Of a DNA stretch of 64,000 bases, positions 17,216 through 37,210 are shown piece by piece. Source of the stretch: Bifidobacterium psychraerophilum (GTDB lineage: Bacteria > Actinomycetota > Actinomycetes > Actinomycetales > Bifidobacteriaceae). The stretch's first letter is position 1. Each line of letters starts with the position of its first letter. The position numbers and the translations under genes are program-made. The notes beneath the pieces are model-generated. The model saw only the letters and a list, made by a program, of their open reading frames with translations. It was not told the origin of the DNA and searched no databases. Location: contig NZ_JGZI01000010.1 of NCBI RefSeq assembly GCF_000741705.1, positions 682,001 to 746,000 on the forward strand, written 5' to 3'.

Positions 17216-19018
17216 CTACTCTGCGGGCTTATCCGTTGCGGATGACTCTCCGCTCTGCTTCGGCGCATCCGACTCATCGTTGTCGAAACTGGGGAAGGAC
17301 AGATCAGGGATGTCCAGATCGACTTTGGGGAAGGTGGAGCTGTCAAGCAGGGAGGTCAGCTGGGCCAAGTACTGATCCGGATCCTCGCGCTTGTCCGGAA
17401 CAGGAGTTGATTGGCCAGCGCCCTGTGTGGCAGCGTCACCCGTCTGCGGGCGTGATGCAGCGGATGCATCAGTTGCCTGTGACGGGAAGACCTGAGCGGG
17501 GGCTGATTGCTGCGTGTCCTGCCGACCTGTCTGTGCGGACCAGGAGTTTTGCGGGGCATCGCCACGAGACGGCGATTCCTGGGCCGGCTGTGCCTGTGAG
17601 GACCGGGCGAATGGGTTGACCGGTGTCGAAGCGCTCTGCTGCCCGTTATCCGAGGATGGGCTCGGTGCCGTCTGGCGGGTCCCCGTGGCGGGCTGCTCCG
17701 GCTTCCATGAACGAGGCTGCGCTTCGTTGAAGCTCAACGGATCGAATTGTTCGGTTGCGGCATCCTCCACCTCGAAACGCTGCTGTGCGGCCGCGGCGAT
17801 GGCATCACCCTTGGGTGCGGCAGCTGCGCTTTGATTCACCTGTGTCGCCTGGGCATCCTGGCCATAGCCGGATGGGAGGGCGGCGCTCTCGTTGGAGACC
17901 GCCTGGGTGGCGGCTTCCTGGGACGGCGTGGACTGTGATGGTGCCGGCTCCGAGTGGTCGTGATGAACCTGGGCAAGGGCCGCGAGTGATGCGTTCGACG
18001 ATGCCGGAGTTGCACCGGACGCCGCGACTCCCGCAACGCCAGACGCAGCACCCGCTGCACCCGAAGCTCCCGAAGCCTGGAAGATCGCTTTCTCGGCCGC
18101 ATTCAGACGGTTGAAATCGTCGACCGAATCCTTTTCGTCGGCAGCGGGGGTCTCCTGGACAGGCTGCCCGAAGGCCATGGCCGCCTCTTCGGCATGCTCG
18201 GGTGCGAAGCCCTGGGGATGCTCCTCCTGCGAATGTCCGTTGTTACGGCCTGCCATGTCGAACAGAGGTGCGACCACCTGCGTTGCGCCATTGTTCAGGG
18301 AAGACTGTGAGGGGATGAAGCTGGTGGCCTCCGCAGAGGTATCCGCGGCAAGGTGTTGACGGGCCTCATCATCCGCCGGTGTGTAATCGTTGACCCTGAT
18401 ATAAGACTCGACGCGGGAAAGCAACTGAATGGCGAAGTTCAGGAAGTAATCCACCTGACGCTCATCGTATCCACGCTTGCCCCTGCTTTGGGTAAAGATG
18501 ACGTTGGATACCCGCTTGGCGTTGAGATCGACCAGATCCTTGGCATCTTCGGAGTCGTGATCCTGATTCAGATCGACGGACAGTTTCCTGGAAATCTGAT
18601 CGATCAGACGATCTACCTGTTTGCGTTTGTATGATGGGCGTTTCGGCTCACCCTCTTTGAACCGTTCCCCCAACAGACGCGAGGCGTGCTCACTGTATCT
18701 GCGGAACATGGATTCCGTCTCCGCCCGCCAGGCGACGCGGCCATGTTCGTTGAGCTCCCACGTTGTCCGCTTATCGACCACGGCACGTTCCAAACGCGCC
18801 AGCGTGGCATCGACCTGCGAGATGACATAGCCGTTCTTCTTGAGCTCGAAGGAGACATTCTGGATGTCGTCCTGACCAAGGCGTGGTTCATCGCTTTCAT
18901 ACAGGGCGTGAGCACGTTCGAGGAAAGCATCGACCTGTCCCGTGTCATAACCCCACTTGCGCTTGCCAGCGCGTGCGATCACAGATCCACGTTTCTCGGC
19001 ATCCGGCTCTTGCGCCAT
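17216..19018 (-). CDS. long DivIVA-domain protein
   Basis: 600 aa. Repeated short DivIVA-type motifs are visible in the first half: KWGYDTGQVDAFLERAHALY (about 22-41), FELKKNGYVISQVDATLARL (about 56-75), then KRGYDERQVDYFLNFAIQLL (about 182-201). The second half is low-complexity, rich in Ala, Ser, Gln and Pro, ending with an acidic FPKVDLDIPDLSFPSFD tail that resembles the FtsZ C-terminal DLDIPDF peptide. Likely a cytoplasmic scaffold for the cell pole or septum. It is separate from the DivIVA gene at 1952. Confidence 0.8.
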   Translation of the reverse strand: MAQEPDAEKRGSVIARAGKRKWGYDTGQVDAFLERAHALYESDEPRLGQDDIQNVSFELKKNGYVISQVDATLARLERAVVDKRTTWELNEHGRVAWRAETESMFRRYSEHASRLLGERFKEGEPKRPSYKRKQVDRLIDQISRKLSVDLNQDHDSEDAKDLVDLNAKRVSNVIFTQSRGKRGYDERQVDYFLNFAIQLLSRVESYIRVNDYTPADDEARQHLAADTSAEATSFIPSQSSLNNGATQVVAPLFDMAGRNNGHSQEEHPQGFAPEHAEEAAMAFGQPVQETPAADEKDSVDDFNRLNAAEKAIFQASGASGAAGAASGVAGVAASGATPASSNASLAALAQVHHDHSEPAPSQSTPSQEAATQAVSNESAALPSGYGQDAQATQVNQSAAAAPKGDAIAAAAQQRFEVEDAATEQFDPLSFNEAQPRSWKPEQPATGTRQTAPSPSSDNGQQSASTPVNPFARSSQAQPAQESPSRGDAPQNSWSAQTGRQDTQQSAPAQVFPSQATDASAASRPQTGDAATQGAGQSTPVPDKREDPDQYLAQLTSLLDSSTFPKVDLDIPDLSFPSFDNDESDAPKQSGESSATDKPAE

Positions 19019-19255
19019 AGGACATCGACCTCCCGCCCATCAGGGCATCAGACTCAGACAATCCAACATTACGTGATTGTTGCGACTCATTCAGTAAAGC
19101 ACAATCAACACCAGGAAAACGAACATCGGCTGAAGCAAAGCTGTGAAGGCCCTGCATCGAGGCCACACTTCCCGTCCGCCATCAATATCCTACGCACCGT
19201 GTTTCCTGGGCGCGTTGTGCAAGCGCTCCAGTGATACGCTATTGTAGTTCGTTGC

Positions 19256-19329
19256 GGGCGATTAGCTCAGTTGGCTAGAGCGCCACCTTTACACGGTGGA
19301 TGTCGGGGGTTCGAGCCCCTCATCGCCCA
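19256..19329 (+). tRNA. tRNA-Val (anticodon TAC)
   Basis: Cloverleaf: acceptor GGGCGAT/ATCGCCC, D-arm GCTC...GAGC, anticodon stem CCACC/GGTGG with loop TTTACAC (anticodon TAC at 19290-19292), T-arm GGGGG-TTCGAGC-CCCTC with one G-U pair, discriminator A at 19329. CCA is not encoded exactly. A tyrosine recombinase remnant starts in its 3' end, marking it as an integration site. Confidence 0.95.
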
Positions 19330-19650
19330 CCCACAAATACCGGCTGAAAACGTTGAGATAACAACGGTTTCAGCTTTTCTTTTTGCCCACAATCTTCCAT
19401 TCTGCCCACATCTAGCCCACTTGCTTTGACAGCTCTGTCTATAGCAGCGGACACATGGTCCGGATCCGAGTCGAACAGATCCGCGTAAATGTCCAAGGTC
19501 ATCCACGCACTGTTATTCCCCAGCATGCGCGTCGCGACGCCTTAACGTTCGCTCAGGTATGCACGGCTCTGGAAGCCTGCCATATGCCTCAGATCATACG
19601 GAGACACCATAGGCAAACCCGCACGACGCAAGGCGGATACATACGAAGTT
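19320..19650 (-). pseudogene. tyrosine recombinase (phage/ICE integrase) C-terminal remnant
   Basis: Reading toward the tRNA: ALRRAGLPMVSPYDLRHMAG (the HxLRH-type catalytic segment, YDLRHM), an in-frame TAA just before 19535, then MLGNNSAWMTLDIYADLFDS, which matches the end of integrases (MLGHxSxxMTLDxYADLF, with the catalytic Tyr). The frame ends inside the tRNA 3' end. The N-terminal two thirds are missing. Almost certainly non-functional. Confidence 0.85.
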
Positions 19651-19699
19651 CTGTTATGCCCATGTCCTGTTATGCAGATCACTCACGGACTGCTCGTGA

Positions 19700-20074
19700 A
19701 TCGGGTTGCCCGACGGTTCCAGGAACAACAGTTCATTCCCACCGAGCCGCGGTTCTGCTCGCGAGAGCGACAGTTCAATCAATAACCAAGGATAAAGGTA
19801 TTCATACCAAAAACCTTTATGGCGACATCGAGAATGTGGCTGATGAAAACATCATCACTAGCCAACTCAAAGAGAAAGCGTATGCAATTCGATTCCTGGT
19901 TAGCGACACGGCTGACGGCGATCTAGAAACCCCCAGTGGATGAGCATGATGCATCGCACATCCTCGGATTCCTGGATATGTTGCTTGACTACATCTATCA
20001 GCAACCGATCGCCATACAGAAACGTCAAGACCTCAGAAAGAAGCGCAAGCAGGCCCACACTCGTAAGGTTTAAC
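19700..20074 (+). pseudogene. frameshifted DUF4145-like protein remnant
   Basis: One frame gives AAVLLARATVQSITKDKGI, then NIITSQLKEKAYAIRFLVSD, up to a stop at 19941-19943; another frame continues with PVDEHDASHILGFLDMLLDY, then IYQQPIAIQKR and a stop at 20072. Together they match the DUF4145 pattern (ARATxExxCKDKG...IRxxGNDAAHGD...ExILEFxDxxLxYVYxxPA). A frameshift near 19925 splits it, and the N-terminus is missing. DUF4145 proteins are common in defence and restriction loci; here it is broken. Confidence 0.6.
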
Positions 20075-20192
20075 TTGTTGAGTTTATATACACATATCAC
20101 CCCGTATCACTAAGTGCTGCGGGTTTATTCTTGCTATCAAATAGCATGTTCGACTCCCGCCAGAGGTCTGATGGTATTCATAGACTGACGAC

Positions 20193-21047
20193 ATGATTCA
20201 GAGCTCTTCACTTCGAGTAACAACGGCTGATGGCAGGACACTCTCCGGTCGATCTTTCGGGCCGACAGATGGAACCCCGATACTGTTCATTGCCGGAGCC
20301 GCGACGGGGAAGAGCATGAGCTTCGGCGACGAGCTTCTTGACAGGTTCAATGTACGTCTTCTGACCATGGACCGGCCAGGGATGGGAGATTCCAGCGGAT
20401 ATGAGACTCGAACGCTCGACTCCACCTCGAACGACTACCGTGTCTTCGTTGAGCAGACACTCGGCATACGGGGAGTATCCATATCGGTAATAGCCAATTC
20501 GCAGGGAGGCGTTTTCGGTCTTTCGACCGCATTACACGGATGGGTATCGCGACTGGTGCTCGCATCGCCTGCGGACGAGATCTCGAATCCGACCATTCAT
20601 GCAATGCTGCCACATGAGGCGACACAGCTTGCTGATATTGCCTGTTCCGACCCTGAACAAGCCGCCAATATACTCGCAACCTTCACCCCGCAAGGCATGG
20701 AGACCATGGTCATCAATGGTTCGCACCCCAGTGATCAGGCCTTCTACCAGCAGCCAGCATTCCTGGCCCGTTACCGCAAAGCTCTTGAGGAAGGGTTCGC
20801 GCAGGACGGCAAGGGGTACGTTACCGACACCCTGATCGCCATGAGGCCTTGGAATCTGAAGTTGACTGATATTCACGTACCGACAACAATTCTGTACGGG
20901 GCACATGACCGAAGCCATTCACCGGACAAGACGGCAACGCTCACCAGCAGAATACCCGGCGCCAAGCGTGTGGTCATAGACGACGCTGGCGGGGCTTTAC
21001 TCTGGACGCACTCCGAGCAGGTACTGCGAGCGGCGCTCGAAAACTGA
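20193..21047 (+). CDS. alpha/beta hydrolase
   Basis: 284 aa, full-length alpha/beta-hydrolase fold. Oxyanion region LFIAGAATGKS, then MDRPGMGDSSG, nucleophile elbow IANSQGGVFG (Ser), acid probably in LYGAHDRSHSP, and a weak candidate His near the C-terminus (LLWTHSEQVL). The LFIAGA sequence departs from the usual HG oxyanion motif. It lies alone inside the island. Substrate unknown; haloperoxidase/esterase-like by general pattern. Confidence 0.8.
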   Translation: MIQSSSLRVTTADGRTLSGRSFGPTDGTPILFIAGAATGKSMSFGDELLDRFNVRLLTMDRPGMGDSSGYETRTLDSTSNDYRVFVEQTLGIRGVSISVIANSQGGVFGLSTALHGWVSRLVLASPADEISNPTIHAMLPHEATQLADIACSDPEQAANILATFTPQGMETMVINGSHPSDQAFYQQPAFLARYRKALEEGFAQDGKGYVTDTLIAMRPWNLKLTDIHVPTTILYGAHDRSHSPDKTATLTSRIPGAKRVVIDDAGGALLWTHSEQVLRAALEN

Positions 21048-21113
21048 CAGATCATCTGATCGGCAGGATGCGTCACATGTCTGATCGCTTAGGCCACGGC
21101 TGCTAAAGGAGGT

Positions 21114-21551
21114 TCAAGAGAGCATCATGACAATTTCGTGCTCGCCTGTGACTTCATCTATATCCTCTTTCATTCTTGTGAAACCCTCACGGAGATAGAA
21201 CGCCAAGGCTTTCGAGTTTTTTACATACACGTTAAGCGTGAGCGAACCGTGATCGTCTTTGACCGAATCAAGCAAAGCCTTCCCGATTCCCCGTGAACGG
21301 TATGCTCTGCAAACGAACAAACCTGCTATGTAATCTCCGTCAAGGCCGATGAAACCCTTCACGCCTTCGTCGTCATAGACCCGAATATCGGCGTTGCCGA
21401 TCATGCCGCGGACTGCTTCAAAATTGCTGTTCCAATGTGTGATGGGAATAAAATCGTGTGCGTCCGTGTTGCCCTCGATCCACAGTTTCATCACTGTATC
21501 CAAATCGTCGGGTCTCATGACTCTAATCGATGCGTGTCCACAATTGCTCAT
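21114..21551 (-). CDS. GNAT family N-acetyltransferase
   Basis: 145 aa. N-terminal IRVMRPDDLDTVMKLWIEGN, acetyl-CoA-binding loop in YRSRGIGKALLDSVK (RxxGIG) and C-terminal KNSKALAFYLREGF followed by the HEIVMMLS end. Resembles the YjaB/YiaC subgroup of small acetyltransferases. The true start may be the Met just before RPDDL (position 21518). Acceptor unknown. Convergent with the hydrolase upstream, inside the island. Confidence 0.82.
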   Translation of the reverse strand: MSNCGHASIRVMRPDDLDTVMKLWIEGNTDAHDFIPITHWNSNFEAVRGMIGNADIRVYDDEGVKGFIGLDGDYIAGLFVCRAYRSRGIGKALLDSVKDDHGSLTLNVYVKNSKALAFYLREGFTRMKEDIDEVTGEHEIVMMLS

Positions 21552-21679
21552 GCGTATGGAGTATAGCCAACCCTGTTATAAATACACTTGCCCAACCTCG
21601 CCATCGATCAGAAAAACCACTTAGCCATCTCCGACACAGCCGCAACGGCTTTCGCGAAAGCACCAGCCCGGAGGCAACA

Positions 21680-21836
21680 ATGAAACAATTCACCAAACAG
21701 GAGGAGACCGAGCTCAAATAACTCCATGAGCAAAGCTTCATCCGCAACAAAATCGCCCGACAACTCCACCGCAGCCCAGCACCATCGGCAAATACGCCAA
21801 ACAACTCGGACTGAGCTTCGCCCGACTGCATTAATG
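21680..21836 (+). pseudogene. decayed helix-turn-helix gene
   Basis: MKQFTKQEETELK, an in-frame stop, LHEQSFIRNKIARQLHRSPA, and after a frameshift IGKYAKQLGLSFARLH. This is the Hin/transposase-like HTH pattern (QGLSRNEIARxLGRSPxTIxKYAKxLGLSFxR) found in phage and IS proteins. ATG 21680 has GGAGG-like sequence (cccGGAGGcaaca) upstream, supporting a once-real gene. Now broken by at least two lesions. Confidence 0.55.
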
Positions 21837-22949
21837 ACCCGTTGCATATCCATCCCGACAACATCGCACAATTCCTTGTCGATCAACCACAGCGGAGCTT
21901 GATTTTAACGACCGAAAAAATAGCCAACTCCGCCACTCGCCCCGAAGTACAACTGCCATCGATGAAGAATCGAAGCGATAGGAATGTTCGAACTGTGAAT
22001 ATCCGTTTCACTATTCCTCTCCAAATGTTGTCGCCGTAACCACTGGACACATCCTTACGCTTCGCGAATGTTGTGGAGACACTGTACATTCCATGCCCGA
22101 AAGAGTTGAGCCGGATACGAGGCAGAAACGTTCTTATTCACACGTTATCGTGCGTCCATTAGAACAGAGCGCTGTAAGAACGATCAACGGGGGGGTGCCG
22201 ACCCTGCTCAATAAACTTCGGACATATTCACCACATACCTTGCAGTTCGTTCACCCTAGTATGTGACATGAAGACCACCTTTATCTCTTATTTCCAACGG
22301 AGAGCACGAACGCAACTGAGAAACGCAATAATTCGAAAACGCCAGAGGTTGCAGTCAGTCGAAAACCTTCTGAAAGCTCCGCTTTTTGTTTAGGTGGACA
22401 AGACATAATACCAACTCACCTCCTTTCGTGTAATTCAAAGAGGTGTGCCCCGTTTCATCGGCGAATATCACCATCCGAAATATAGGGCAGACGAAATCAC
22501 ATATACCAGGGCCAGCCCTAAGATAATCCATATTCCACCCCAGCGTTCCTGTCATAATTCGACATGGACATAAGTGGCCTCCATCAAATCATCTTCCTGA
22601 TTTCCTGTAAGACGAATTTCACTGTATTTCAGCACTCAATGATTTCTGGCGCTGTCCGAAAGATTGTTGACTTGAGGGCCATTAAACGAGGACGAAAACC
22701 CAGGGATTAGCAAAACCTAATTGCTCTTTCACTTCAACAATGATTCAAAGCATTCAATCCCCCCCCGTTTTACTCTCAATAAGAGAATCCACCTTCCGTG
22801 CGGAAAATACGTAGCAAATAAAGTAATTCATCCTTGCACAGTCAGTCACAGTGTCCTGAAATGGCATCAAGAGAGCAACATCCCAACATTCACTGAGCAG
22901 AGTTTGCTCCGATCTAATCGACTACAAAACATGCTTCGTCTGGAGAGTA
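21837..22949. other. AT-rich stretch without a recognised gene
   Basis: Frames are short and none matches a family I know. An inverted repeat CGTTCTTA (22129-22136) / TAAGAACG (22175-22182) and a run of seven G at about 22190-22196 are visible. A GGAGAG ribosome site for the FRG gene is at its right end. Probably decayed island DNA plus the promoter region of the FRG gene. Confidence 0.5.
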
Positions 22950-23792
22950 TTGTTGACTCTCGACAACGAAGAAAGGTTCAGGTTGGAAAAGCAATCCAAA
23001 GCAGAGATTCCTGCACTACTAGAAGAAATCATTCTTCCTGTAACAGATGCCACGCATACCCATGTTTTTCGTGGGCAAACAAATATTAGATGGGAACCGA
23101 TTCCCGGTCTATATCGGCGGCTGCTTAGCAATGGATATTCAAAACCCGAGATAACCGAAGCTTTAATAGAAGAATATGAGGAGGATTGTCTGTGCGAGGC
23201 TAACGGACTCGGTTTTTATGAATCAAACAGATTAGACACGATGATAAATCTGCAGCATCAAGGAGGCGCAACTCGACTCCTCGACGTATCAAGAGACCCT
23301 TTCATCGCCCTTTGGTTCGCCTGTGATGAGAACGAAGATGAAACAGATGGAGTCATATTCGACTATGCGGCCGAAAACTCAATAACTCCTAAATCTGGCC
23401 AGATAAACAGTTGGGATCAGCTATCATCTAATATTTCGCCAGGAGCCGCCTTGCTCTATTTTCCAACTTGGAAGAATGAACGCGTAAAAGCTCAATCAGC
23501 AGGTTTCTTGACATGTTCAATTCAAAATACCCTCCGTGAAGATTCACCATATACAAAAGACTCCCAGCATCTCACTATTAAAAAAACTATTATTCCAAAT
23601 TTGCTGAAGAAATCAATACGAGATTACTTGATTAATTGCCGTGGAATGGATACTTACACAATCTATCCCGATTTTGAAGGGTTTGCATTATACAACTCAG
23701 CTACCCGCAGCTTCGCTCGATGCTATTCTCACCTTTACGGGCGTAGCGGCAATGGACTGTTCCCCGATCCCTACTCACCACCCTTAGATTAG
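22950..23792 (+). CDS. FRG domain-containing protein
   Basis: 280 aa. The FRG domain is recognised by HVFRGQTNIRWEPIPGLYRR (FRG at residues 40-42) and by LQHQGGATRLLDVSRDPFIALWFA (about 101-124), the QHxGxxTRLLDxTxxPxxALxFA motif, followed by GVIFDY. The start is TTG 22950 with GGAGAG 5 bases upstream. It is intact in a decayed island and faces the Mrr-nSTAND gene tail to tail, 156 bases apart. FRG proteins are frequent in defence neighbourhoods and prophages; biochemical activity is not settled. AT-rich relative to the core genes. Confidence 0.85.
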   Translation: MLTLDNEERFRLEKQSKAEIPALLEEIILPVTDATHTHVFRGQTNIRWEPIPGLYRRLLSNGYSKPEITEALIEEYEEDCLCEANGLGFYESNRLDTMINLQHQGGATRLLDVSRDPFIALWFACDENEDETDGVIFDYAAENSITPKSGQINSWDQLSSNISPGAALLYFPTWKNERVKAQSAGFLTCSIQNTLREDSPYTKDSQHLTIKKTIIPNLLKKSIRDYLINCRGMDTYTIYPDFEGFALYNSATRSFARCYSHLYGRSGNGLFPDPYSPPLD

Positions 23793-23948
23793 ACTTTTAT
23801 TAAGCAACTCACCGATCCGCCCATCAGCCGCTCTTCTCTTGCGACTCCTAAGTTATTGCACAATCATTGTTATATGGCTTATTACTATTTCTCTTGATTT
23901 GCTAGACAGCCGCAGATCAGAAGGAATCGACCAAAACGTTCGTTCAAC

Positions 23949-26342
23949 TCAGTTGAGTGGACAATCTAACACACCATCGATCTCATATCTATTTGTTGGA
24001 CCTGAGCTAAAAGAGCTTCCACTATCTCTCTCTTCTTCATCAAACTGATTTTCCATCGAGTCTCGAATTTTCGAGATAAGATCAGATATTTCTGTAATAT
24101 CAAAATTGTCTAATGGTTCATATATTTTTAAGAGATTTCCACATTCGATTGAAAGCGTATCGGCTAACACCGAATCTTCAATCTCTTCGTCTCGTAATCC
24201 TTCACAAATTTGTTTCTGAATATCATCCGAGTAATCTTCTGGGGAATCTAGTTGCTGCTGGATTAAATCTCTTTTTGCTTCATGTATCGCAGCTACCAGT
24301 TCATAACCAGGATTCTCACTTCTCAAATCGCCGAATGCCTCTGCACTTATGTCAAACTTGCAAAATTCCATTATCATCGGCTCCACTATTTCAATCATAG
24401 AGTCGAATTCATTTATATCTAATAGTTCTGGATTAAATATGCGGGTAAAACAATCTTCTTGAATATCTGGCTGCAAAAGAATACCAAAGAACTGATGAAG
24501 AAGATCGTCACTACGATCTGATAGAGCGCTAAATATAATTCTCCAACCATTCGAATAATCTAAGTTCCAAGTTCCATCATACGTATTCAGTGCGTTTGCC
24601 AACAGGTCAATACAAATCTCGGTATCGTCTTGAAATTTGATGAGCGTAACTATCCTCTCACCCTGAAACTTCATTGAATCTTGAAAGGCATCCCAGCGTT
24701 CCCACATTGTCGAATAGAATTCAACCATGGTGGTTGTATTTCGAATCTGATCAAGAAATTGCGACTTTTCTCTGATCTTATCCAGAAACCGAATAGATTT
24801 ATTTTTTCTATCAAGGAAGTCGACAATACCTGGGTTCGCAAAACCGACTTCGCGCTCTCCAACACCAATTTTTTTAAATCCAAACCATGATTGATTCAAC
24901 TTCTCAATAGCCAGGTATGGATCAAATTCGGAAGAAGAAAAATTTTTTGTTGACTGAGCTAATTTTGCTTCCTCAGTTTCTCGACCAGTAAAAGCAAATA
25001 GATTGAATAAAAGCCACTGTTCGTTTGACGATAGTCTCTCAAATATTGGGTTATAGATGTATTCTGGGTTATTCAACGTGTGCTGTATGAAGCCTAATAC
25101 ATCTGCATCATCTACGAAATGGTTAGAAATGTACTCTATAAGACGTGGATTAAAATTTTTATGCTCAATAATCTCGTAATATTGTTTTTCTATGGTTCTA
25201 GAGAACGAAAAGGACTTTTTTATAGGTTGTCTTAACTGTTCATAGTTGCTCTGGAACCTCTTCTTATCGATGTCTGATCGACGGTTATACACCTGCTCCA
25301 GATTTGATCTCAAAATCTTAGCTCTATCAAGATCGTTATACTCAACCATATCAAGAACGGCTATTGAATCCCTTAAGTCGCCAGATAACTTTGCATCAAG
25401 GTTATTGAATTGCTGTCTGGCCGATTTCAGTATCTGGGTTCTTGAGTTTAAAACTATATACAAATTTGCCGTGTATCTAAGCCTGTCTAACAGACGGTCA
25501 AGTTTCTGCAATTCCGAAGTATCTGTTTCGAGAGAATCACTGCCAAGGAAGTCATCAAATACAATAAATAAGATGCGATCGTCAGCTTTGAAGGATTCGC
25601 TATACTCTTTGATCACATCCTGCGCTTCATCAAGTGATCGCCAAATAACTTTCGCTTTTTGGTCTGGATCTAAGGAGAAACTATTAGCAAACAGATTTCC
25701 CAACATCTTACACAAGGATGTCTTACCTACACCCGGATTGCCATGAACAAGTAATATATGTCGATTCATTATGAGCTCGTGAGCCTTTTGCAAAAACTCT
25801 GTTTCCACATAGTAATGAGGATTAAAAGTAGGAAAGTCTTCCGACAAGATTCGGAATCGATGCTCTGTCAGAATTGTGGAAAGATTACCCCCAATAAGTT
25901 TATATTTCCTGAAAACACTTTCACAACATGATTCTGAACTAAGTTCATTGATTCTAGCTTTATCTATCAGATATTTATCTGAGGGGAACAGCTGTGGAAA
26001 TTCGCATCGTAAATCATGCTGAACTTGCGGGGTTAAACCAACCGAAGTCACGAATACGTAGTGAAAGTCATTTGTCCAACTAAAGTCGATTGCAGTTTGC
26101 TGGATTTTCTGAATCTCTTCTACAACCTGTTTCTTGGCATTAGTTTTATATGGGCTCCACCTTTTAGCCTGTATAACAAGGGTCGGATTTGTCGAATCAT
26201 CGAGCCCATCTATACCGTGATCTTTGCCTTCTGGAAAACCGTGAATTTGTTGATTATTGAAAAGAATTTTACTCAAATCAACTGCGAATCGCTCAAATTC
26301 CTCCGAGTCCAAGGAATCTGCTCTTACTCCAACATTACTCAT
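23949..26342 (-). CDS. Mrr-like nuclease / nSTAND3-type NTPase fusion (candidate anti-phage sensor)
   Basis: 797 aa. Residues 1-150 look like an Mrr-family PD-(D/E)xK domain: EEFERFAVDL helix, HGIDG with Asp45, and VIQAKRW with Gln58-x-Lys60. Residues 165-400 form a P-loop NTPase: Walker A GNPGVGKTSL (201-210), Walker B ILFIVFDDF (257-265), and sensor-like VLNSRTQILKSA, the pattern of the novel STAND NTPase 3 group. The C-terminal 350 residues are helical, acidic and unassigned, as expected for a target-sensing region. In STAND defence proteins (Avs-like) phage protein binding triggers an N-terminal effector; this role here is inferred from architecture. ATG 26342; strongly AT-rich. Confidence 0.8.
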   Translation of the reverse strand: MSNVGVRADSLDSEEFERFAVDLSKILFNNQQIHGFPEGKDHGIDGLDDSTNPTLVIQAKRWSPYKTNAKKQVVEEIQKIQQTAIDFSWTNDFHYVFVTSVGLTPQVQHDLRCEFPQLFPSDKYLIDKARINELSSESCCESVFRKYKLIGGNLSTILTEHRFRILSEDFPTFNPHYYVETEFLQKAHELIMNRHILLVHGNPGVGKTSLCKMLGNLFANSFSLDPDQKAKVIWRSLDEAQDVIKEYSESFKADDRILFIVFDDFLGSDSLETDTSELQKLDRLLDRLRYTANLYIVLNSRTQILKSARQQFNNLDAKLSGDLRDSIAVLDMVEYNDLDRAKILRSNLEQVYNRRSDIDKKRFQSNYEQLRQPIKKSFSFSRTIEKQYYEIIEHKNFNPRLIEYISNHFVDDADVLGFIQHTLNNPEYIYNPIFERLSSNEQWLLFNLFAFTGRETEEAKLAQSTKNFSSSEFDPYLAIEKLNQSWFGFKKIGVGEREVGFANPGIVDFLDRKNKSIRFLDKIREKSQFLDQIRNTTTMVEFYSTMWERWDAFQDSMKFQGERIVTLIKFQDDTEICIDLLANALNTYDGTWNLDYSNGWRIIFSALSDRSDDLLHQFFGILLQPDIQEDCFTRIFNPELLDINEFDSMIEIVEPMIMEFCKFDISAEAFGDLRSENPGYELVAAIHEAKRDLIQQQLDSPEDYSDDIQKQICEGLRDEEIEDSVLADTLSIECGNLLKIYEPLDNFDITEISDLISKIRDSMENQFDEEERDSGSSFSSGPTNRYEIDGVLDCPLN

Positions 26343-26639
26343 TGTTTTGAGCTTACACTAACTCTTTATCGGAAAATCTAACGATATAAAAATACACTGA
26401 CAGATTCTCCTTTTGAGGGCATACTCGAACAAATGCAAATCATCATGATCTCAAAAAACAACTTCTCACATACCACAGGCAGAGCCATCTAACTGAGACG
26501 AATAGATTGAAGATACTCATTCAACTCAGTCTCACCAGAGAAGGCCGTCTCAGTAAAAATGGCATCGCGGTATGAAGGCAATTTGTTACCTGTTGCTTGT
26601 AACAAAAGACAACACCCATTGCAAAAATTCGATGTGACG
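26343..26639. other. AT-rich non-coding stretch
   Basis: Upstream region of the nSTAND gene; likely holds its promoter. No intact frame or known element. A small dyad GTTACCTGTTGCTTGTAAC is visible near 26587-26605. Confidence 0.4.
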
Positions 26640-27275
26640 TCACTGTCGAATCAGCGCGATCACATCGCTCGACTTACCAAATTCGAAGCGGGAACCGATA
26701 GAATCACATGAACCTGGAGCACTACGCTGTTGCCAATCAACCACTTGCATGAACCTCAAATCATGCAACCGCTTACACAACACAGTCAGCTTCACATTCC
26801 AGAACGACCTCACTCGATAATTAAAATTGGCCTGCCCTCTGCATGAACATATTTGCTGCAATCCAAAACGCACCGCACAAATTAGCATCTCTACCAGCAT
26901 CATGCCGAACACCCCACCGACAACGTTTTCTCTCATTCCACTTCGACACAACTTGACAAGCATCAAAAGACGGAGCAGTCAACGTCAGCAAGAAAAAACG
27001 GAACGCCTCGAGCTGTACACATTCACATAAACGCTAAGAAGAATCTTCATCGCATCCTTCATATACAACTATGAGCAACCGGAATAACGCTTTCTAGAAT
27101 GATTCCCACATCGAACAGCAATCAACTCACCAGTGACAGCATCCATCAATCCAATCGGACGTTGACAAGGATGGACGTTGAACGCACCACCAAATGCAAC
27201 TATCGCCAACATCATCAAGACCGTACAAGTGTCTACCTGTGAGCAGCAAAACCATGAGATCTCCACCACCCGCAC
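26640..27275 (-). pseudogene. probable decayed replication initiator (RepSA-like)
   Basis: Fragments in order on the minus strand: RPIGLMDAVTGELIAVRCGN, then HSRKRYSGCS, in-frame stop, LYMKDAMKILLSVYV; further on NYRVRSFWNVKLTVLCKRLH, then DLRFMQVVDWQQR. The RCxNRR...CPSCS..Y..DA pattern followed by YxKVxEWQxRG is characteristic of actinobacterial RepSA-type initiators of integrative plasmids. Several stops and frameshifts; no conserved His-hydrophobic-His motif survives after DWQQR. Identification is from short matches only. Confidence 0.45.
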
Positions 27276-27524
27276 CCCTCATCAATAACCTCATGTGTCT
27301 CTATAACCTGAGCAGACACACCATATAATTGACCGCGCTATTCGGACCACCGCAATATCACCAGTCGTCTGCTGCATAGTCTTATTTGGCGGGCAAGATG
27401 ATACCTCCCGGTATTCCACCAGTGTCACAGCACAGCCTGAAAGTAACGCAGATGTCACCTTATTCACAACAACAAACCACAGAAAATAGATAGCTTCGAA
27501 CAAACAACACATTCACACAGCAAA

Positions 27525-27560
27525 TGTCGAGATTCGAACACCCTCATCGCCCCACCCAGA
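27525..27560 (+). repeat. imperfect copy of tRNA-Val 3' end (putative right att site)
   Basis: ATGTCGAGATTCGAACACCC, then TCATCGCCCCACCCAGA, aligns with tRNA-Val 19300-19335 (ATGTCGGGGGTTCGAGCCCC, then TCATCGCCCACCCACA), with the T-loop and acceptor end recognisable. The same orientation and the integrase at the left end make this the probable attR of the island. Mismatches suggest an old event. Confidence 0.65.
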
Positions 27561-27906
27561 TGCCCTTACCGGGACTCACGACATCATCAGAAACCTTGCG
27601 CGATCAGTCCATATGGGAGCGCAGCAACACCGGAATACGGGTATGACGATTTTCACTGTTATATTCTGCGGGCAGATTCTACATCGACGTGACCTGTCAC
27701 CGAAAGGCATGTAGCCAAGCGGTGTTCGATGACGAGACGACCATTGTGGGTGCCGTCAGCATCAAGCGAAGCGTTGAAAGCGCCACCAGCGCGGCATGCA
27801 GCACCTGACATATCAGTGATTGGTGGGAGAAATCGACGAGCAATGGACACCGGTCATGAAGCCATACCTCATGGTTTCTCTCCCCCGCGACGTGCCTTTG
27901 GGTGCT
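27561..27906. other. no recognised gene
   Basis: GC rises again after the putative att site. A minus-strand frame (27659-27850) gives AGGAFNASLDADGTHNGRLV, which I cannot assign; it has no good start and is probably a remnant or chance. Confidence 0.4.
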
Positions 27907-28395
27907 CTACGCCTCGTGCTTCGTTGCGGTCAGATCCTGCGCGTAGTTCTCGACGGCTCGTTGATAGAGCGGTAGTGTGCGTGCGAGCGCGACAAGTGCA
28001 ATCTGAAGTGCTTCGTCGCTGTATCCGGCGTCTCGAAGTGCGAGGGCGAGGAAGGCTTGCGCGGCGTCGCCGGTTATCTGATCCTGGGGGTGAGCGCGTA
28101 ACAGGTCGATCGCGGCCTGGGGGTCACCGATGTTGCGCAGTGAACTGGCGAGTTGAATGATGGCTTGGGGTCTGCGGTCGCCTGTCAAACCGTGGTCGAG
28201 AGCGGAGCGGTACAGCGGGATCGCTTCGGTTTCCATGCCAAGGTAGTCGTGCACGGATGCCCATTCGTACAGCGCTTCGGGATCGTCCGCTGGACGTTGC
28301 GCTACCAGTTCTCGCATGGCATCCAAGGTTTCGTCGGGTCGTGTGTCGTCGGCCGTTGACCAAAACAGCTCGATCTGCTCATCCCAGCTATGCAT
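27907..28395 (-). CDS. tetratricopeptide repeat protein
   Basis: 162 aa from ATG 28395. Begins MHSWDEQIELFWSTADD; three to four TPR-like helical pairs follow, for example ALYEWASVHDYLGMETEAIPLYRSAL and AFLALALRDAGYSDEALQIA. This matches the small TPR proteins (TPR_5 type) common in actinobacteria and firmicutes. No enzymatic domain; likely a protein-protein interaction module. It is the first intact gene after the island. Partners unknown. Confidence 0.8.
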   Translation of the reverse strand: MHSWDEQIELFWSTADDTRPDETLDAMRELVAQRPADDPEALYEWASVHDYLGMETEAIPLYRSALDHGLTGDRRPQAIIQLASSLRNIGDPQAAIDLLRAHPQDQITGDAAQAFLALALRDAGYSDEALQIALVALARTLPLYQRAVENYAQDLTATKHEA

Positions 28396-28632
28396 GGCCT
28401 CATTCTCACATACGAGATGGATGTTCAACCGCCATCGCTTCGACTGCATATCGCTGGTATTCCGGCACTCCGTACGGACATGGTTGCATCCGGCTTACTT
28501 TGGGCACCATATGGGCACGAATCATCTGATGAGCCTTCTCCGTAGCGTTTCCTTAATGCTCGCAACGGATGGCGGAGCCTTTCCATGTTCCGCTGGGGGC
28601 GTTGGCTCCTAGGGCTTCGTATCCTGTTGGAT

Positions 28633-29052
28633 ATGAGCAATGAACAGCAGCAGGATCCGACCGTCGTGGCGTTCGTGTGCACACACAATGCATGTCGTAG
28701 CCAGATAGCCGAAGCGTGGGCCAACAAGTATGCATCAGAGGGCATCCGTGCGGTCTCAGCGGGAACCCATCCCGATGAGATGGTCGATCCTGGTGCCATA
28801 AGAATCATGAGGTCGAGGCATGGCGTCGACCTGTCCGGCAAACATCCCAAACGTCTGGATGCGGTGGGCAGAATCGATGTGCTGGTCACCATGGGGTGTG
28901 GCGTGGCCTGTCCATACGTACCGGGTGCGCGGCTTGTCGAGTGGGATATACCTGATCCAATGGGCGGCAGCGATGAAGCATACGATGAGGTCATCGAAGT
29001 GATTCGGAGCAAGGTCAAGGATCTTACCGCCGAGCTGGAGCGCCGACAATAA
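28633..29052 (+). CDS. low-molecular-weight phosphatase / arsenate reductase-like protein
   Basis: 139 aa from ATG 28633. The P-loop FVCTHNACRSQIAEAWA (Cx5R) at the N-terminus and the C-terminal WDIPDPMGGSDEAYDEV (general-acid Asp-Pro) define the LMW-PTP/thioredoxin-type ArsC family. A second Cys (MGCGVACPYV) sits near the position of the redox Cys in ArsC enzymes, so arsenate reductase is plausible; tyrosine phosphatase is the alternative. An in-frame ATG at 28585 lacks conservation. Confidence 0.82.
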   Translation: MSNEQQQDPTVVAFVCTHNACRSQIAEAWANKYASEGIRAVSAGTHPDEMVDPGAIRIMRSRHGVDLSGKHPKRLDAVGRIDVLVTMGCGVACPYVPGARLVEWDIPDPMGGSDEAYDEVIEVIRSKVKDLTAELERRQ

Positions 29053-29076
29053 AGTATTCCGGAAATCATGCTGCGC

Positions 29077-29205
29077 AGCACACTCAGATCCTGCTCCCGG
29101 TCGGATCACTTCCCTTTCAGAGGAGCCTCGACCCTGAGCAGACTTATGAGCAGAATCACTTGCACCTGCGCTCCGCTTCCTTCGATTACGACGGCATGCT
29201 TGGGA
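29077..29205 (+). pseudogene. small remnant of a DUF262 gene
   Basis: Nucleotide and protein fragments match the C-terminal part of the intact DUF262 gene at 34465: LRSCSRSDHFPF (compare IRSCSRPNYFPL) then, after a deletion, SLDPEQTYEQNHLHLRSASF (compare SLDPEKAYEQDHLHPHSAFL). About 130 codons between the two blocks are missing. It shows that a second, diverged DUF262 copy once lay here. Confidence 0.65.
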
Positions 29206-29283
29206 AGAGCATTGCGCGTGTCGGTTTAGCTGTCGCTCGCAAAGCGATGACTTCCGATAAGTGGGCGTGCTCCGTTGATTCGC

Positions 29284-29760
29284 TTACAGTTTGCTTGCAT
29301 AGCAGTAGGAGAGTTTGGATTCTCTGTATGCTCCGAACAGGGGGATCCTGGTGAATCCGTGTTTTTCGTAGAAGCGGATCGCATCGGGTTGACTGGTGCC
29401 TGTCTCCAGGACCAGGCATTTCGCGCCCCGATCACGGGCGGCGTTGCGCAAAGCCGTGAGAATCGCCGTGGACGCGCCTTTGCCTCTGGCTTTGGGCGTC
29501 GCATACATGCGTTTGATCTCCATGACATCGGATCCGAGTGCGCTGTCGTGGATGGATCTAAGCCCTCCGCACGCCACGGCGGTTCCATGAATGTCCCGAG
29601 CGATGAGGAAAACCGTCACGTCGTCGGCGGACGGTGGCGTACCCGGCTCGTGGGTGTCGTTGCCGTATCGTGCGTCGAGCTCGTCACGTTGCTTCTGGCG
29701 CAGCATGCGGCCTTCTTGCTGGTCCCAGGAGATTTCCTCCACATGCCAGTCGCTCATCAT
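29284..29760 (-). CDS. GNAT family N-acetyltransferase
   Basis: 158 aa. Contains TAVACGGLRSI, the beta4-alpha3 acetyl-CoA loop MEIKRMYATPKARGKGASTA (the EIKRMYV.P..RGKG pattern) and DAIRFYEKHGFTRIPLFGAY. This pattern is typical of the YwnH/ElaA-like general acetyltransferases. Substrate unknown. Stands alone between convergent/divergent neighbours. Confidence 0.87.
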   Translation of the reverse strand: MMSDWHVEEISWDQQEGRMLRQKQRDELDARYGNDTHEPGTPPSADDVTVFLIARDIHGTAVACGGLRSIHDSALGSDVMEIKRMYATPKARGKGASTAILTALRNAARDRGAKCLVLETGTSQPDAIRFYEKHGFTRIPLFGAYRESKLSYCYASKL

Positions 29761-29900
29761 TGGCCTTTCTGTCGTGCTTGGCTGTCCTCGGGAAATTTAC
29801 CAATCCCTAACGGAGATGGTGAGAGTGACGTGGCTCCAGGTTGACGAACGGTTGCACTGGGATGCCATGACCTTGATGCGCTGTGGTGCGCCGGTATGGT

Positions 29901-30662
29901 TCACGGCTGTTGCTGCACATCCGTATCGGGCGTGCCGTCAGGGACGGGTGCAAGGGGCTGTGCCTGATATTGGACGCCCGGCCCTGATGCCTGCATGTCC
30001 TGCTGATATCCGGGCTGCGGAGTGTAGCCGGTCGGGTACGCCGTTGCAGGCACACGGTCGAAGCGTGCACCGGCAGGCTGCGAGGGCAGGCACATCATCA
30101 CGATGTTGGTAATCGCGCCTGCGAGCAGGACGAGCAGACCGAGAAGCAACACCATAACCGCCTGCATAAGATGCCCGCCTCCGGTACGGAACGGGAAATC
30201 ATAGGGATGGAACAACGCCCACATAACCATTTGGAAAATGGCTGTCAGCATGATGATGGTGCCGGCAATCGACAACCCGCCGATAAGCCAGAGCCAGTGT
30301 CCGGACTTGTTGGCATCGTGCAGTCTACGGGCGGAAACGGCGTATTGAGGCACGAGGAACGCCAAGGACGTCATCAGAGAGATTATTCCGAAGGGATTTG
30401 TCTGCGTCCGCCCCTCTCCTGACGCGACGGGGAACAAATTGATACTATTCGTCAGGATGAAAATGCCGATCGACACAAGCGTTGTGAACAGGTAGCTCCA
30501 CCAGTATTCGCTTCGGGATGCACGCCCGCTGAAAGTCGCGTACTTCCTCCAGAATCTGACGATGGCGTTGCCGAAACCGATCCCGTACCACGGCTGATCA
30601 AGCGGAGGCTCGCACTGGACGGGCTGCTGGAGTATCGGTGGTGTCGCCTGATATTGAGCCAT
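29901..30662 (-). CDS. DUF805 family membrane protein
   Basis: 253 aa. N-terminal motif WRKYATFSGRASRSEYWWSY, four hydrophobic helices and YAVSARRLHDANKSGHWLWL are DUF805 hallmarks (YxxFxGRASRxEYW and ARRLHDxNxSG). Extra Pro/Gln/Tyr-rich cytoplasmic segments occur at both ends. A clear AAGGA ribosome site precedes ATG 30662. Function of the family is unknown. Confidence 0.9.
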   Translation of the reverse strand: MAQYQATPPILQQPVQCEPPLDQPWYGIGFGNAIVRFWRKYATFSGRASRSEYWWSYLFTTLVSIGIFILTNSINLFPVASGEGRTQTNPFGIISLMTSLAFLVPQYAVSARRLHDANKSGHWLWLIGGLSIAGTIIMLTAIFQMVMWALFHPYDFPFRTGGGHLMQAVMVLLLGLLVLLAGAITNIVMMCLPSQPAGARFDRVPATAYPTGYTPQPGYQQDMQASGPGVQYQAQPLAPVPDGTPDTDVQQQP

Positions 30663-30986
30663 GATGAATCCTTAATACAATAGTTTTGCTATCACAAAGC
30701 ATACTTGCCCGGCGATCTTTACACCTTTCACCACCGAACACCACACGTTCACAACCGCTGTTGAGCAGTCGGGATTCTCAGCATGATGGCCGTGTTTTCC
30801 ACTGCATCCAAGCTGATAATCGTCCATATTGAGCCAGCAGACTTCTGGCAGCCTCATCACGGTCACCAAGCCCCGCCTTCGTCAGAGTCCTGGACACGGC
30901 AGCGGCACGGCGTACCGATCGGGGATGCAGGGAGCAGCCCGGAAAATAACCCAGGCTCCGTCGGGTCCACTGATATCGTTTGAGAT
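30663..30986. other. intergenic region, no gene seen
   Basis: Lies between two divergently transcribed genes (DUF805 on minus, GNAT on plus), so it probably contains both promoters. No structured element recognised. Confidence 0.4.
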
Positions 30987-31493
30987 ATGAGTGTGTGTCT
31001 GCGTGCTTCGAATAGCTCTGACCTTCAGCATCTCGCACCGATCGAGGAACAGGCGGACGTCCTGTTCCTCGAGTTGTTCCACCCGGAGCACTGGGATTCA
31101 GCGCCAACAGGCGCCGACAGGCTGGCCCAGGGTGGTTTCATCATAGTGGCCGAACATCAATCGGGACGTCTTGTCGGTTTCGTGCACGTCCTGGAACATT
31201 CCGGCATCGCCCATCTGGAACAGTTGTCGGTGCTTCCCGACTTCGGTAGAAGGGGAATAGGAGGCCGACTGGTCGGCGCGGCCGAGCAAGCGGCAAAGGA
31301 TCGTGGATACCATGAACTGACCTTGCGGACATATGCCGACGTTCCATGGAACGCTCAGTTCTACCGTGGACTCGGCTTCAATGAAGAGGAGCCAAGCACC
31401 GAATTCCACAGGAATCTGGCAGCCGTCGAAAAGAGGATGGGACTGGATGAATTCGGGAGACGAGTACAAATGCATGTGATCCTGAATCCATGA
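30987..31493 (+). CDS. GNAT family N-acetyltransferase
   Basis: 168 aa. ADVLFLELFHPEHW, VGFVHVLEHSGIAHLEQLSV, then the acetyl-CoA loop LPDFGRRGIGGRLVGAAEQA and the end motif VPWNAQFYRGLGFNEEE. All four GNAT motifs are in order. Acceptor unknown. Not clearly linked to a neighbour. Confidence 0.88.
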   Translation: MSVCLRASNSSDLQHLAPIEEQADVLFLELFHPEHWDSAPTGADRLAQGGFIIVAEHQSGRLVGFVHVLEHSGIAHLEQLSVLPDFGRRGIGGRLVGAAEQAAKDRGYHELTLRTYADVPWNAQFYRGLGFNEEEPSTEFHRNLAAVEKRMGLDEFGRRVQMHVILNP

Positions 31494-31860
31494 CCGTGTG
31501 GAGGCATCAGATCAGAATATCGACATCGCCCGGAGTGAGGTCGAAGCCGCGAACTTGACCATCGGCACTCCCGGATGCGCACTCCGAGCGCTCACTCGGA
31601 AAGCGCGGTCGAGGCCCATGCAGTATGTAAGGATTTCACTGGATGTCATTACGCGCATGACCAAGCGTGAGGTTTCAGCCTGTTACTCGGGCAGCACAAT
31701 CACAAGGTCTTCGTGCGGGATTCCTCAGTTCCTCTCGGTGTAGGCCAAGCAATCACCACACCTACCAAGCCAAAGCCAACCCCACCGATACGATCAGGCC
31801 TGCTGACCACCCGGCAACTACCCACGGCGAGCAGCCTCAACATCCTAGACATTCTCATCG
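31494..31860. other. no recognised gene
   Basis: Only short frames without ribosome sites or family matches between two convergent acetyltransferase genes. Confidence 0.4.
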
Positions 31861-31922: not shown

Positions 31923-32459
31923 TCAGACCTGTCGCCATTCTTTGCGAAGTATGGCGTATTCTCGGGTGTTCTCGTAGTGTTTCGTGCCATCCGCATTGTT
32001 GACGAATGATATGAACTCACGGTACAGAGCCTCCTGTCTCATACCCAGACGTTCGCACAGGCGTTGTGACGGGAGATTATCGTCTTCAACATAGGCGTAG
32101 ATCCTGCGTGCCTGCCGATCATGGAATAGGTGGTTGAGAAATGCGATAGCCGCTTCGGTGGCATATCCCAGACCTCCGAATGTGGGATTGAAGTTCCAAC
32201 CGACACCGTAGGTATCGGGTTGATCGAATTCAGCGAAGACACTGCCGATCAAACGGTCATCATCCTTGGTGCAAACGGCCAGTTGCAGATCATCGCCAGA
32301 TTTCTCACGAATGTCCCGCTGCGCTGCGGCTAAGGAGCCCAGTCTTTCGCGAGCGAAGCAATGGACCGTCGGGTTTGCCCTGTATTCAAGGAGCGCAGCC
32401 GCATCCCGATCCTGATAGTTCCTGAGTACGAGCCTGTCTGTATTGATTGCTGTGATCAT
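31923..32459 (-). CDS. RimJ/RimL-type GNAT acetyltransferase
   Basis: 178 aa from ATG 32459 (conserved start MITAINTDRLVLRNYQDRDA). GWNFNPTFGGLGYATEAAIA is the acetyl-CoA-binding block (NPxxxGxGYATEA) and VEDDNLPSQRLCERLGMRQE the C-terminal motif; this is Acetyltransf_3, the family that modifies protein N-termini or small amines. The upstream in-frame start at 32573 adds a non-conserved leader. Confidence 0.88.
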   Translation of the reverse strand: MITAINTDRLVLRNYQDRDAAALLEYRANPTVHCFARERLGSLAAAQRDIREKSGDDLQLAVCTKDDDRLIGSVFAEFDQPDTYGVGWNFNPTFGGLGYATEAAIAFLNHLFHDRQARRIYAYVEDDNLPSQRLCERLGMRQEALYREFISFVNNADGTKHYENTREYAILRKEWRQV

Positions 32460-32817
32460 ATCCGCATCCCTGGTAGTGGTGTCCTGCCGCGTCTGCGGGT
32501 CATCGGACGATACCGGTCTGAGCCGGCCACTTACCACGGTATAGGAGTCTCCTCCATCATGCCAGGCATACATATTGCATTCATATGCAGGAATATAGGT
32601 GGGCCCCGGTGGTATTGCTCGACACGAGATGCTCTATTTGAGTCCGGTAGACTCTCTGCCGCACCATAGCCGTATTGCTGTTTCACGTTGTATTGCAAGC
32701 ACGGCATTGTTGTTCTCAGCAGACACGACCTCCGCTCCGCGATTCTCCTGGAGTCGCGCGTACTCTGGTGCCGGTCGGAACGTGGCTCATCCATAGGCGC
32801 AGCGTTGGGAGGTGGGA
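32460..32817. other. intergenic region between divergent genes
   Basis: Holds the start regions of the GNAT (minus) and the permease (plus); GGGAGG at about 32807 is the ribosome site of the latter. No other element seen. Confidence 0.4.
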
Positions 32818-34107: not shown

Positions 34108-34464
34108 AGCCCGCTTGATGTGCTGCACCATCATCATGCGGGACCACCAGCGCACGCACCATAAGCGCTCGATTGGAGGCAAGAGTGACTTCGTCGGCTT
34201 GTTCTGGTTTTAGACATATTAATCCATCTGTTGCCGGGATCGTTTTACTGCTTGTCGTTTCTGAAATGCCTGCTTTTATTCCAACTGGATTCTATAGGAT
34301 TCATGCGCTTGCCTGAGGTGATTCTCACGCCTGTTGCAATCATTGCACTTCTCCCTTTTTATACTCCATCGGACCATGATGAGGATCGCGGTTGCAATGC
34401 TTGGGTGGTCGTATGGTTGCAGCATATGGAGGTTGGAGAACAAGACCGGAGGAAATGGACTGCA
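34108..34464. other. leader region of the DUF262 gene
   Basis: The DUF262 frame is open back to 34231, but this part encodes hydrophobic, non-conserved sequence. I take it as non-coding. No terminator or promoter is firm. Confidence 0.35.
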
Positions 34465-36363: not shown

Positions 36364-36921
36364 TCAGGATGGGTGGGACGAAAGTGCTTTGTAGACGCTG
36401 GTTCTGCCGATGCCCATGGTTGCGGCTATCTCATTGATGCTTCTACCTTGCACGTGGCGAAGTGCGTGTACCCGTTGCACGGTGTCCTTATCCAGGACGC
36501 TGGGTCGGCCGCCTTTTCTCCCCCTGACTCTGGCGGCCTGCAATCCAGCCATCGTGCGTTCACGGATGAGGTCACGTTCAAACTGGGCAACCGCGGCAAA
36601 CACATTGAAGATGAGCGTACCTCCGGCACTGGTAGTGTCCATGTTCTCGGTCAGCGAGCGGAATCCGACACCTTTCGCGCCAAGTTTTTCGACAAGATCG
36701 ACCAGGTTCGCCACGGACCGGCCCAATCGGTCCAATTTCCATACCACGACTACATCTCCGTCAACGACGGTGTCCATCATCAGGTCAAGTTGCACCCTGT
36801 GACTGGTAGCTCCTGACGCGTAGTCCGAGTATATGCTGTCGCACCCCGCTTTGGTGAGAGCGTCTATCTGGAGTTCGGGTCGTTGTTCTTGGGTGCTGAC
36901 CCTGGCGTAACCGATGTTCAT
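36364..36921 (-). CDS. serine recombinase (resolvase/invertase family)
   Basis: 185 aa from ATG 36921. Catalytic domain: MNIGYARVSTQEQRPELQID (nucleophile Ser9), ASGATSHRVQLDLMMD, VVWKLDRLGRSVANLVDLVE, then FNVFAAVAQFERDLIRERTM. A C-terminal HTH has GRKGGRPSVLDKDTVQRVHA and INEIAATMGIGRTSVYKALS. Length and layout fit Hin/Gin/Tn3-type small serine recombinases. A 28-bp hix-like palindrome lies 62 bases upstream of the start. The reading frame extends upstream without conservation. Confidence 0.9.
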   Translation of the reverse strand: MNIGYARVSTQEQRPELQIDALTKAGCDSIYSDYASGATSHRVQLDLMMDTVVDGDVVVVWKLDRLGRSVANLVDLVEKLGAKGVGFRSLTENMDTTSAGGTLIFNVFAAVAQFERDLIRERTMAGLQAARVRGRKGGRPSVLDKDTVQRVHALRHVQGRSINEIAATMGIGRTSVYKALSSHPS

Positions 36922-36982
36922 CTTCCCATTGTTCGAGGACCGTCGGATATCGCTGATTGTGACGTGTAGAGCGACCACATCA

Positions 36983-37010
36983 CATTCGGGAAAGGGTCCT
37001 TTCCCGAATG
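36983..37010. repeat. 28-bp palindrome, candidate recombination site
   Basis: CATTCGGGAAAGG - GT - CCTTTCCCGAATG: two perfect 13-base arms around a 2-base centre, upstream of the serine recombinase gene. Serine invertases act at 26-bp sites of two 12-base arms around a 2-base crossover, so the geometry is close. It could instead be an operator for the recombinase. Confidence 0.6.
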
Positions 37011-37210
37011 AAATGTTCCATATCGGCATAGCGCTGACGGTCATTGTTTGTATCTCTGCCGACAAGCGTTGTGCGTGGTTCACAAAGGCGGTCTTGACTT
37101 CCATTGATTCCTATATGGGAATCACTTAGGAGATATCATCGGAAACTCCGTTTTACCGCACTGGCACTGAATGCGTCTTCATCCGACACACCATTGCCAC
37201 CTGATGCAGC

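Follow-up and report, generated by a model that had tools for sequence, protein, structure and literature searches.

Two AT-rich genes that face each other near a tRNA-Val gene of Bifidobacterium psychraerophilum, one encoding a protein with an FRG domain and the other a fusion of an Mrr-like nuclease with an nSTAND3 ATPase, raise the question of whether they constitute one anti-phage module, a candidate put forward in a sequence-only reading of this DNA, or two defense systems that act independently. We addressed this question in a stretch of 64,000 nucleotides (positions 682,001 to 746,000 of contig NZ_JGZI01000010.1), hereafter the window, to which all coordinates refer. Both genes are intact, with open frames precisely where that reading had placed them, and their G+C content (0.432 for the FRG gene and 0.378 for the Mrr-nSTAND3 gene vs 0.567 for the whole window) agrees with their description as AT-rich. 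Sites resembling promoters and terminators do not exceed chance expectation. The relevant features are as follows.

19256..19331, plus strand: tRNA-Val (TAC), integration site, start of the island
19332..19740, minus strand: decayed tyrosine-integrase remnant adjoining the tRNA, 76% DNA identity to the start of the site in genome G005 (stretch L206)
22950..23792, plus strand: FRG gene, 280 aa (open reading frame list); TTG start, either 22950 or, by sequence reading, 22953
23793..23948, no strand: gap of 156 bp between the convergent genes
23949..26342, minus strand: Mrr-nSTAND3 gene, 797 aa, ATG start (open reading frame list, Pfam, PADLOC PDC-S73)
26019..26318, minus strand: Mrr-like PD-(D/E)xK nuclease domain, residues 9-108, with E17, D45, Q58 and K60 (Mrr_cat, E 1.2e-5)
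25296..25811, minus strand: nSTAND3 P-loop ATPase domain, residues 178-349, with Walker A G201-K207, D263/D264 and R301 (E 2.5e-25)
23952..24812, minus strand: C-terminal region, presumed sensor, residues 511-797, poorly conserved
27524..27558, plus strand: second, degenerate tRNA-Val 3' end (attR-like), local alignment score 36

The domain assignments of the earlier reading held up in HMM searches, with the Pfam matches of FRG, Mrr and nSTAND3 all exceeding the curated cut-offs; NCBIfam yielded nothing above cut-off. In the 797-aa protein, the Mrr_cat domain scored 25.8 bits (cut-off 21) and the nSTAND3 domain 89.4 bits (cut-off 27.2). The match to the PADLOC candidate family PDC-S73 (PDLC05079; E 6.4e-50) extends over residues 10-769 of the protein and positions 8-725 of the 752 in the profile, and the chance of an open frame of 797 codons arising from base composition alone is approximately 2e-26. 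In a scan with each species represented by a single genome, we detected 398 stretches encoding relatives of this protein, of which the best 80 were kept. A length filter of 600-900 aa retained 76 of the 82 relatives whose frame was usable, 74 of them with lengths of 734-808 aa, a uniformity that fits a complete one-protein unit. For the alignment, the six relatives outside the filter and four more (L032, L091, L097 and L098) were dropped, leaving 72 relatives and the window protein (73 sequences). Not only are Asp45 and the Gln58-x-Lys60 motif, already pointed out in the earlier reading, invariant in all 73 sequences together with Glu17, but the 22 invariant residues also include G201, G204, G206, K207, D264 and R301 of the ATPase (D263 being nearly so) as well as H394, P399, R400, P426, P504 and D508. 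The latter is the last invariant column, beyond which F792 alone is nearly invariant. Among the 60 matches listed of 376 between the alignment profile and solved structures, we found P-loop ATPases and weak matches to designed repeats, including one of residues 493-667 to a designed helical repeat protein (E 2.6e-4). Given the PDC-S73 match, the conserved residues and the uniform lengths of the relatives, the protein possesses the full effector-ATPase-C-terminal chain of this known candidate family; its domain order shows no difference from that of PDC-S73, within which it is a divergent outlier.

This order, an effector followed by a STAND ATPase and a C-terminal region that is presumed to be the sensor, is that of Avs (AVAST) proteins. 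Avs4 (AVAST type 4) also joins an Mrr-like nuclease to a STAND ATPase in one protein and is about twice as long as the window protein. None of the seven PADLOC families listed for the latter (E values up to 10) is an AVAST model, and the PADLOC library presumably holds Avs models. Closer in its ATPase is Avs5 (AVAST type 5), in which, according to the accessible part of PMC12931631, an nSTAND3 domain is likewise located between an N-terminal effector and a variable C-terminal region, and which is activated by a jumbo-phage protein. The effector of Avs5 is Sir2-like and its C-terminus contains repeats (same partial source), whereas the window protein has an Mrr-like effector and only about 290 residues after position 510. 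We infer from these sequence comparisons that the Mrr-nSTAND3 protein probably senses infection in the manner of Avs proteins and responds through an effector that cuts DNA. Once a phage product has bound the variable C-terminal region, ATP binding and oligomerization of the nSTAND3 ATPase would follow; the N-terminal Mrr-like PD-(D/E)xK domains would then come together and cut DNA, and infection would stop through degradation of phage, and possibly host, DNA.

The 280-aa product of the other gene matches Pfam FRG over residues 38-131 (54.2 bits, cut-off 25, E 2.8e-14) and 14 models of the PADLOC candidate family PDC-S15 (best E 9e-32, residues 32-248), of which it is a divergent member with no particular difference found. 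This family is termed uncharacterized in the accessible part of PMC12482510. Across 27 aligned FRG sequences, the R41-G42 motif is invariant, as are R56, Q102, H103, G105, T108, D112, F123, R178, Q182 and L227. Sequence searches against solved structures gave no credible relatives of the FRG protein. The predicted structure (pLDDT 77.9, pTM 0.78) resembles ADP-ribosyltransferase-fold enzymes, which account for the 50 PDB matches listed, at modest Z scores (best 6.0). The most likely activity of the FRG protein is NAD+ consumption or the ADP-ribosylation of a target; upon infection, the enzyme would spend NAD+ as an NADase or in ADP-ribosylation.

Do the two proteins act together? That an FRG enzyme and an Mrr-nSTAND3 sensor form a joint module, with the FRG protein, for example, modifying or regulating the STAND protein, might be suggested by the adjacency of the two open frames on one AT-rich stretch and by the fact that both families are defense candidates. 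However, the two genes converge on each other, 3' end to 3' end, and hence are not one transcription unit. Furthermore, a profile search detected an FRG gene in only one of 104 neighborhoods of Mrr-nSTAND3 relatives (L034, from Tenacibaculum, 8.5 kb away, the one relative that speaks for a joint module). These neighborhoods correspond to loci L003-L108 (106 in total) minus two without a profile match, and have a mean flank of 15.1 kb over the whole set; at 72 loci, the flank is 5 kb or longer on each side. Conversely, none of 65 FRG neighborhoods (mean stretch 11.9 kb, eight being only about 3 kb) contained an nSTAND relative; in both counts some loci are near-copies of one another and hence not fully independent. 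At the genome level, any FRG gene is present in 6 of the 50 carrier genomes examined out of 80, the genome of L034 included. In Lactococcus reticulitermitis, the source of the closest relative among those kept (30% identity to the window protein), FRG is absent both from the vicinity of the Mrr-nSTAND3 gene and from the whole genome. On the linkage counts and the convergent orientation, we rejected the joint module, which we regard as highly improbable. The co-occurrence survey speaks against the modular interpretation of the sequence-only reading, which was correct in its observation and partly wrong in its interpretation: the locus contributes two new members of listed defense candidates, and an FRG-nSTAND module is not demonstrated.

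The gene neighborhoods of the Mrr-nSTAND3 relatives are informative in another respect. We collected 131 immediate neighbors, reduced to 130 by removal of L066:11274-12233, a piece of an nSTAND gene. At a threshold of 1e-10 or better, these neighbors matched 391 PADLOC models, as opposed to 81 in a control of equally many ORFs (130), which were sampled from 270 in the window, positions 19-41 kb excluded, and in 14 stretches of the same genus; the model counts are redundant, with OLD alone matching many GajA models and UvrD-like helicases among the controls matching many GajB models. Since the models are redundant and the control represents one genus, we consider defense neighborhoods around the Mrr-nSTAND3 relatives to be moderately supported. 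The defense role proposed in the earlier reading is supported for each gene taken singly, each fitting a PADLOC candidate family and lying on accessory DNA (see below).

The largest cluster among the 130 neighbors has eight members, and the four of these that were scanned with Pfam (L034, L073, L074 and L090) combine AAA_15 with an OLD-like TOPRIM domain. We searched with a profile built from six cluster members, which match by construction. Of the 91 relatives whose upstream sequence exceeds 2.5 kb, 7 have an OLD-type gene directly upstream in the same orientation, six of the seven being seeds of the profile; anywhere in the stretch, such a gene was detected at 16 of the 104 loci, several weakly. 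The titled carriers span several phyla. The same profile found nothing at the 65 FRG loci or on the stretches around the two genes of the window. The recurrence of this neighbor across phyla could mean that an OLD nuclease and the Mrr-nSTAND3 protein form one system between them, and that the OLD component was lost from, or never arrived at, the locus studied here, leaving a degraded or solo copy. Yet 84 of the 91 relatives, including the closest one, lack such a match upstream, and the seven cases may be a chance pile-up in defense islands, for which the FRG loci are the sole comparison; we consider this explanation improbable. The pairs found in some relatives are reminiscent of WonAB from Vibrio cholerae, in which an ABC/OLD-type ATPase gene accompanies a PD-(D/E)xK nuclease gene; however, WonB is a 16-kDa nuclease for which the accessible part of PMC12137116 mentions no STAND ATPase, and the genes of the window have no adjoining match to the OLD profile. 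Tentatively, PDC-S73 might represent a class of Avs-like proteins that are compact and have a short sensor, distributed over many bacterial phyla and one archaeal bin, and occurring both solo, as in the window, and together with a second nuclease encoded by an OLD-family gene directly upstream, a proposal that we put forward as possible and still rather doubtful.

The genomic location of the two genes is that of mobile cargo. The 600-aa gene next to tRNA-Val has a match in all 27 genus genomes, and in all 14 genus stretches compared its homolog is adjoined by tRNA-Val (TAC), on the strand seen here in six and on the opposite one in eight. The frames of the integrase remnant contain stops in the window and are open in L206, with a 52-aa piece being 63% identical. 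The L206 protein matches Pfam Phage_integrase (E 5.3e-27), and the 70-aa piece from the window alone has no Pfam match. The score of the attR-like repeat was reached in none of 300 Markov shuffles (best 31), and six sister stretches gave scores of 18-25. Two traits of tRNA-targeted elements are therefore present, namely, a repeated tRNA 3' end at the far end and an integrase, here a remnant only, beside the tRNA. The remnant fits the earlier description of the surroundings as a decayed island, but the island also holds intact-looking genes with Pfam matches, including an alpha/beta hydrolase, GNATs, a TPR protein and an LMW phosphatase. Sister genome G024 shares positions 20091-21042 (94%) and 30849-31678 (89%) with the window and has about 140 bp in place of 21727-30848, of which it shares nothing apart from one 32-nt match elsewhere. 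In G016, the homolog of 31930-32569 starts less than 190 bp from the tRNA, and a homolog of the TPR gene (27907-28449) is located elsewhere on the stretch. Because the FRG and Mrr-nSTAND3 genes are both missing at the site in these two sister genomes, the sequence comparison identifies them as accessory DNA at a tRNA hotspot. The gap in G024 does not match the segment from the tRNA to the repeat (19297-27558), and with the two boundaries in disagreement, several events must have happened.

Within the host's family, FRG is found in 9 of 189 genomes and the Mrr-nSTAND3 protein only in that of B. psychraerophilum itself, the other 188 genomes yielding no relative at E 0.001. Draws from wider groups gave 5 of 396 genomes for the phylum (own genome counted) and 7 of 295 for the order around the Lactococcus genome (the latter counted). 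In the phylogenetic tree, the window protein clusters with its Lactococcus relative at a support of 100, with other Bacillota nearby; once the Lactococcus row is removed the window protein is unplaced, so that an origin of the gene from Bacillota is only suggested by this tree. By reading of the translations, the Lactococcus gene is flanked by release-factor-3-like and DEAD-helicase-like genes, and a NACHT-like protein, just below the Pfam cut-off, is encoded one gene further on.

BLAST searches retrieved 21 plasmid records and 2 phage-labelled records with Mrr-nSTAND3 relatives, and 15 plasmid records with FRG relatives; region 19000-28600 itself had no megablast match among plasmids. In viral contigs, single-protein queries found no relatives of either protein, and alignment queries found 13 Mrr-nSTAND3 loci and, in a companion alignment search, 49 loci. 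Together with the integrase remnant on the same island, the plasmid-borne relatives are compatible with both genes acting against plasmids instead of phage, or stabilizing their element through addiction or by restricting competitors. Ordinary phage defense also travels on mobile elements, though, and we deem this role unlikely, if somewhat less so than the other alternatives.

Collectively, these observations make it probable that each of the two genes is a single-gene anti-phage system, independent of the other, and that both are cargo in the tRNA-Val hotspot, one an Avs-like Mrr-nSTAND3 sensor-nuclease and the other an NAD-using FRG enzyme. Independence is indicated by the long matches to two different PADLOC families, by the missing linkage between FRG and nSTAND genes and their convergent orientation, and by the Lactococcus relative with its FRG-free genome; we take the 'S' in PDC-S to denote a single-gene system. 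A functional test of PDC-S15/FRG or PDC-S73/Mrr-nSTAND3 was not found in the open-license literature, surveyed mostly at the level of listings, and the accessible part of PMC11514479 contains nothing on the FRG or Mrr-nSTAND3 families. Two other PDC candidates were inactive in Escherichia coli, according to the accessible part of PMC12409345. The locus places such defense-candidate genes at a tRNA hotspot of a bacterial family in which no Mrr-nSTAND3 match turned up among the 188 other genomes searched. Separating two candidates that are paired only by position lets each be tested alone, and for the Mrr-nSTAND3 family, the invariant residues, the counts of relatives and the recurrent OLD neighbor make its function directly testable.

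The window holds a third listed defence candidate besides the FRG and Mrr-nSTAND3 genes, namely a gene assigned by profile search to HEC-05, a candidate family in PADLOC, and this gene adjoins that for a serine resolvase:

34231-36225, plus strand, HEC-05 gene with a GmrSD_N domain (PADLOC E 6.5e-181)
36364-37104, minus strand, serine resolvase gene
37251-40322, minus strand, gene for a 1023-aa protein

The last of these genes lies in a stretch with strong GC and AT skew; searches of its product against Pfam and PADLOC at E 0.01 gave no match, and the sister genome G024 has a homologue for part of it, matching at 56% across 414 aa.

Among the relatives of the Mrr-nSTAND3 gene in other genomes, a gene for an OLD-type nuclease is located directly upstream, on the same strand, at loci L017, L034, L057, L073, L074, L090 and L100. 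Near-identical Mrr-nSTAND3 proteins are encoded by a Pseudomonas plasmid (L012) and by a contig whose database entry labels it a phage from human faeces (L014). The frame is split or interrupted in relatives L004, L011 and L053, and Pedobacter soli (L049) carries two Mrr-nSTAND3 genes inside 10 kb.

Two further features belong to the left part of the window:

20193-21047, alpha/beta hydrolase gene (counterpart at the equivalent site in G024, L204:3024-3872)
21584-21824, repeat-like piece

The repeat-like piece, which may be what is left of a small gene of mobile or HTH type, is matched in the sister genomes G005 (21626-21824, 81% identical) and G024 (21584-21726, 84%). The hydrolase gene is 94% identical to its equivalently located G024 counterpart, in contrast to only 52-57% for the gene beside the tRNA-Val (TAC), and was therefore probably exchanged recently at this integration hotspot.
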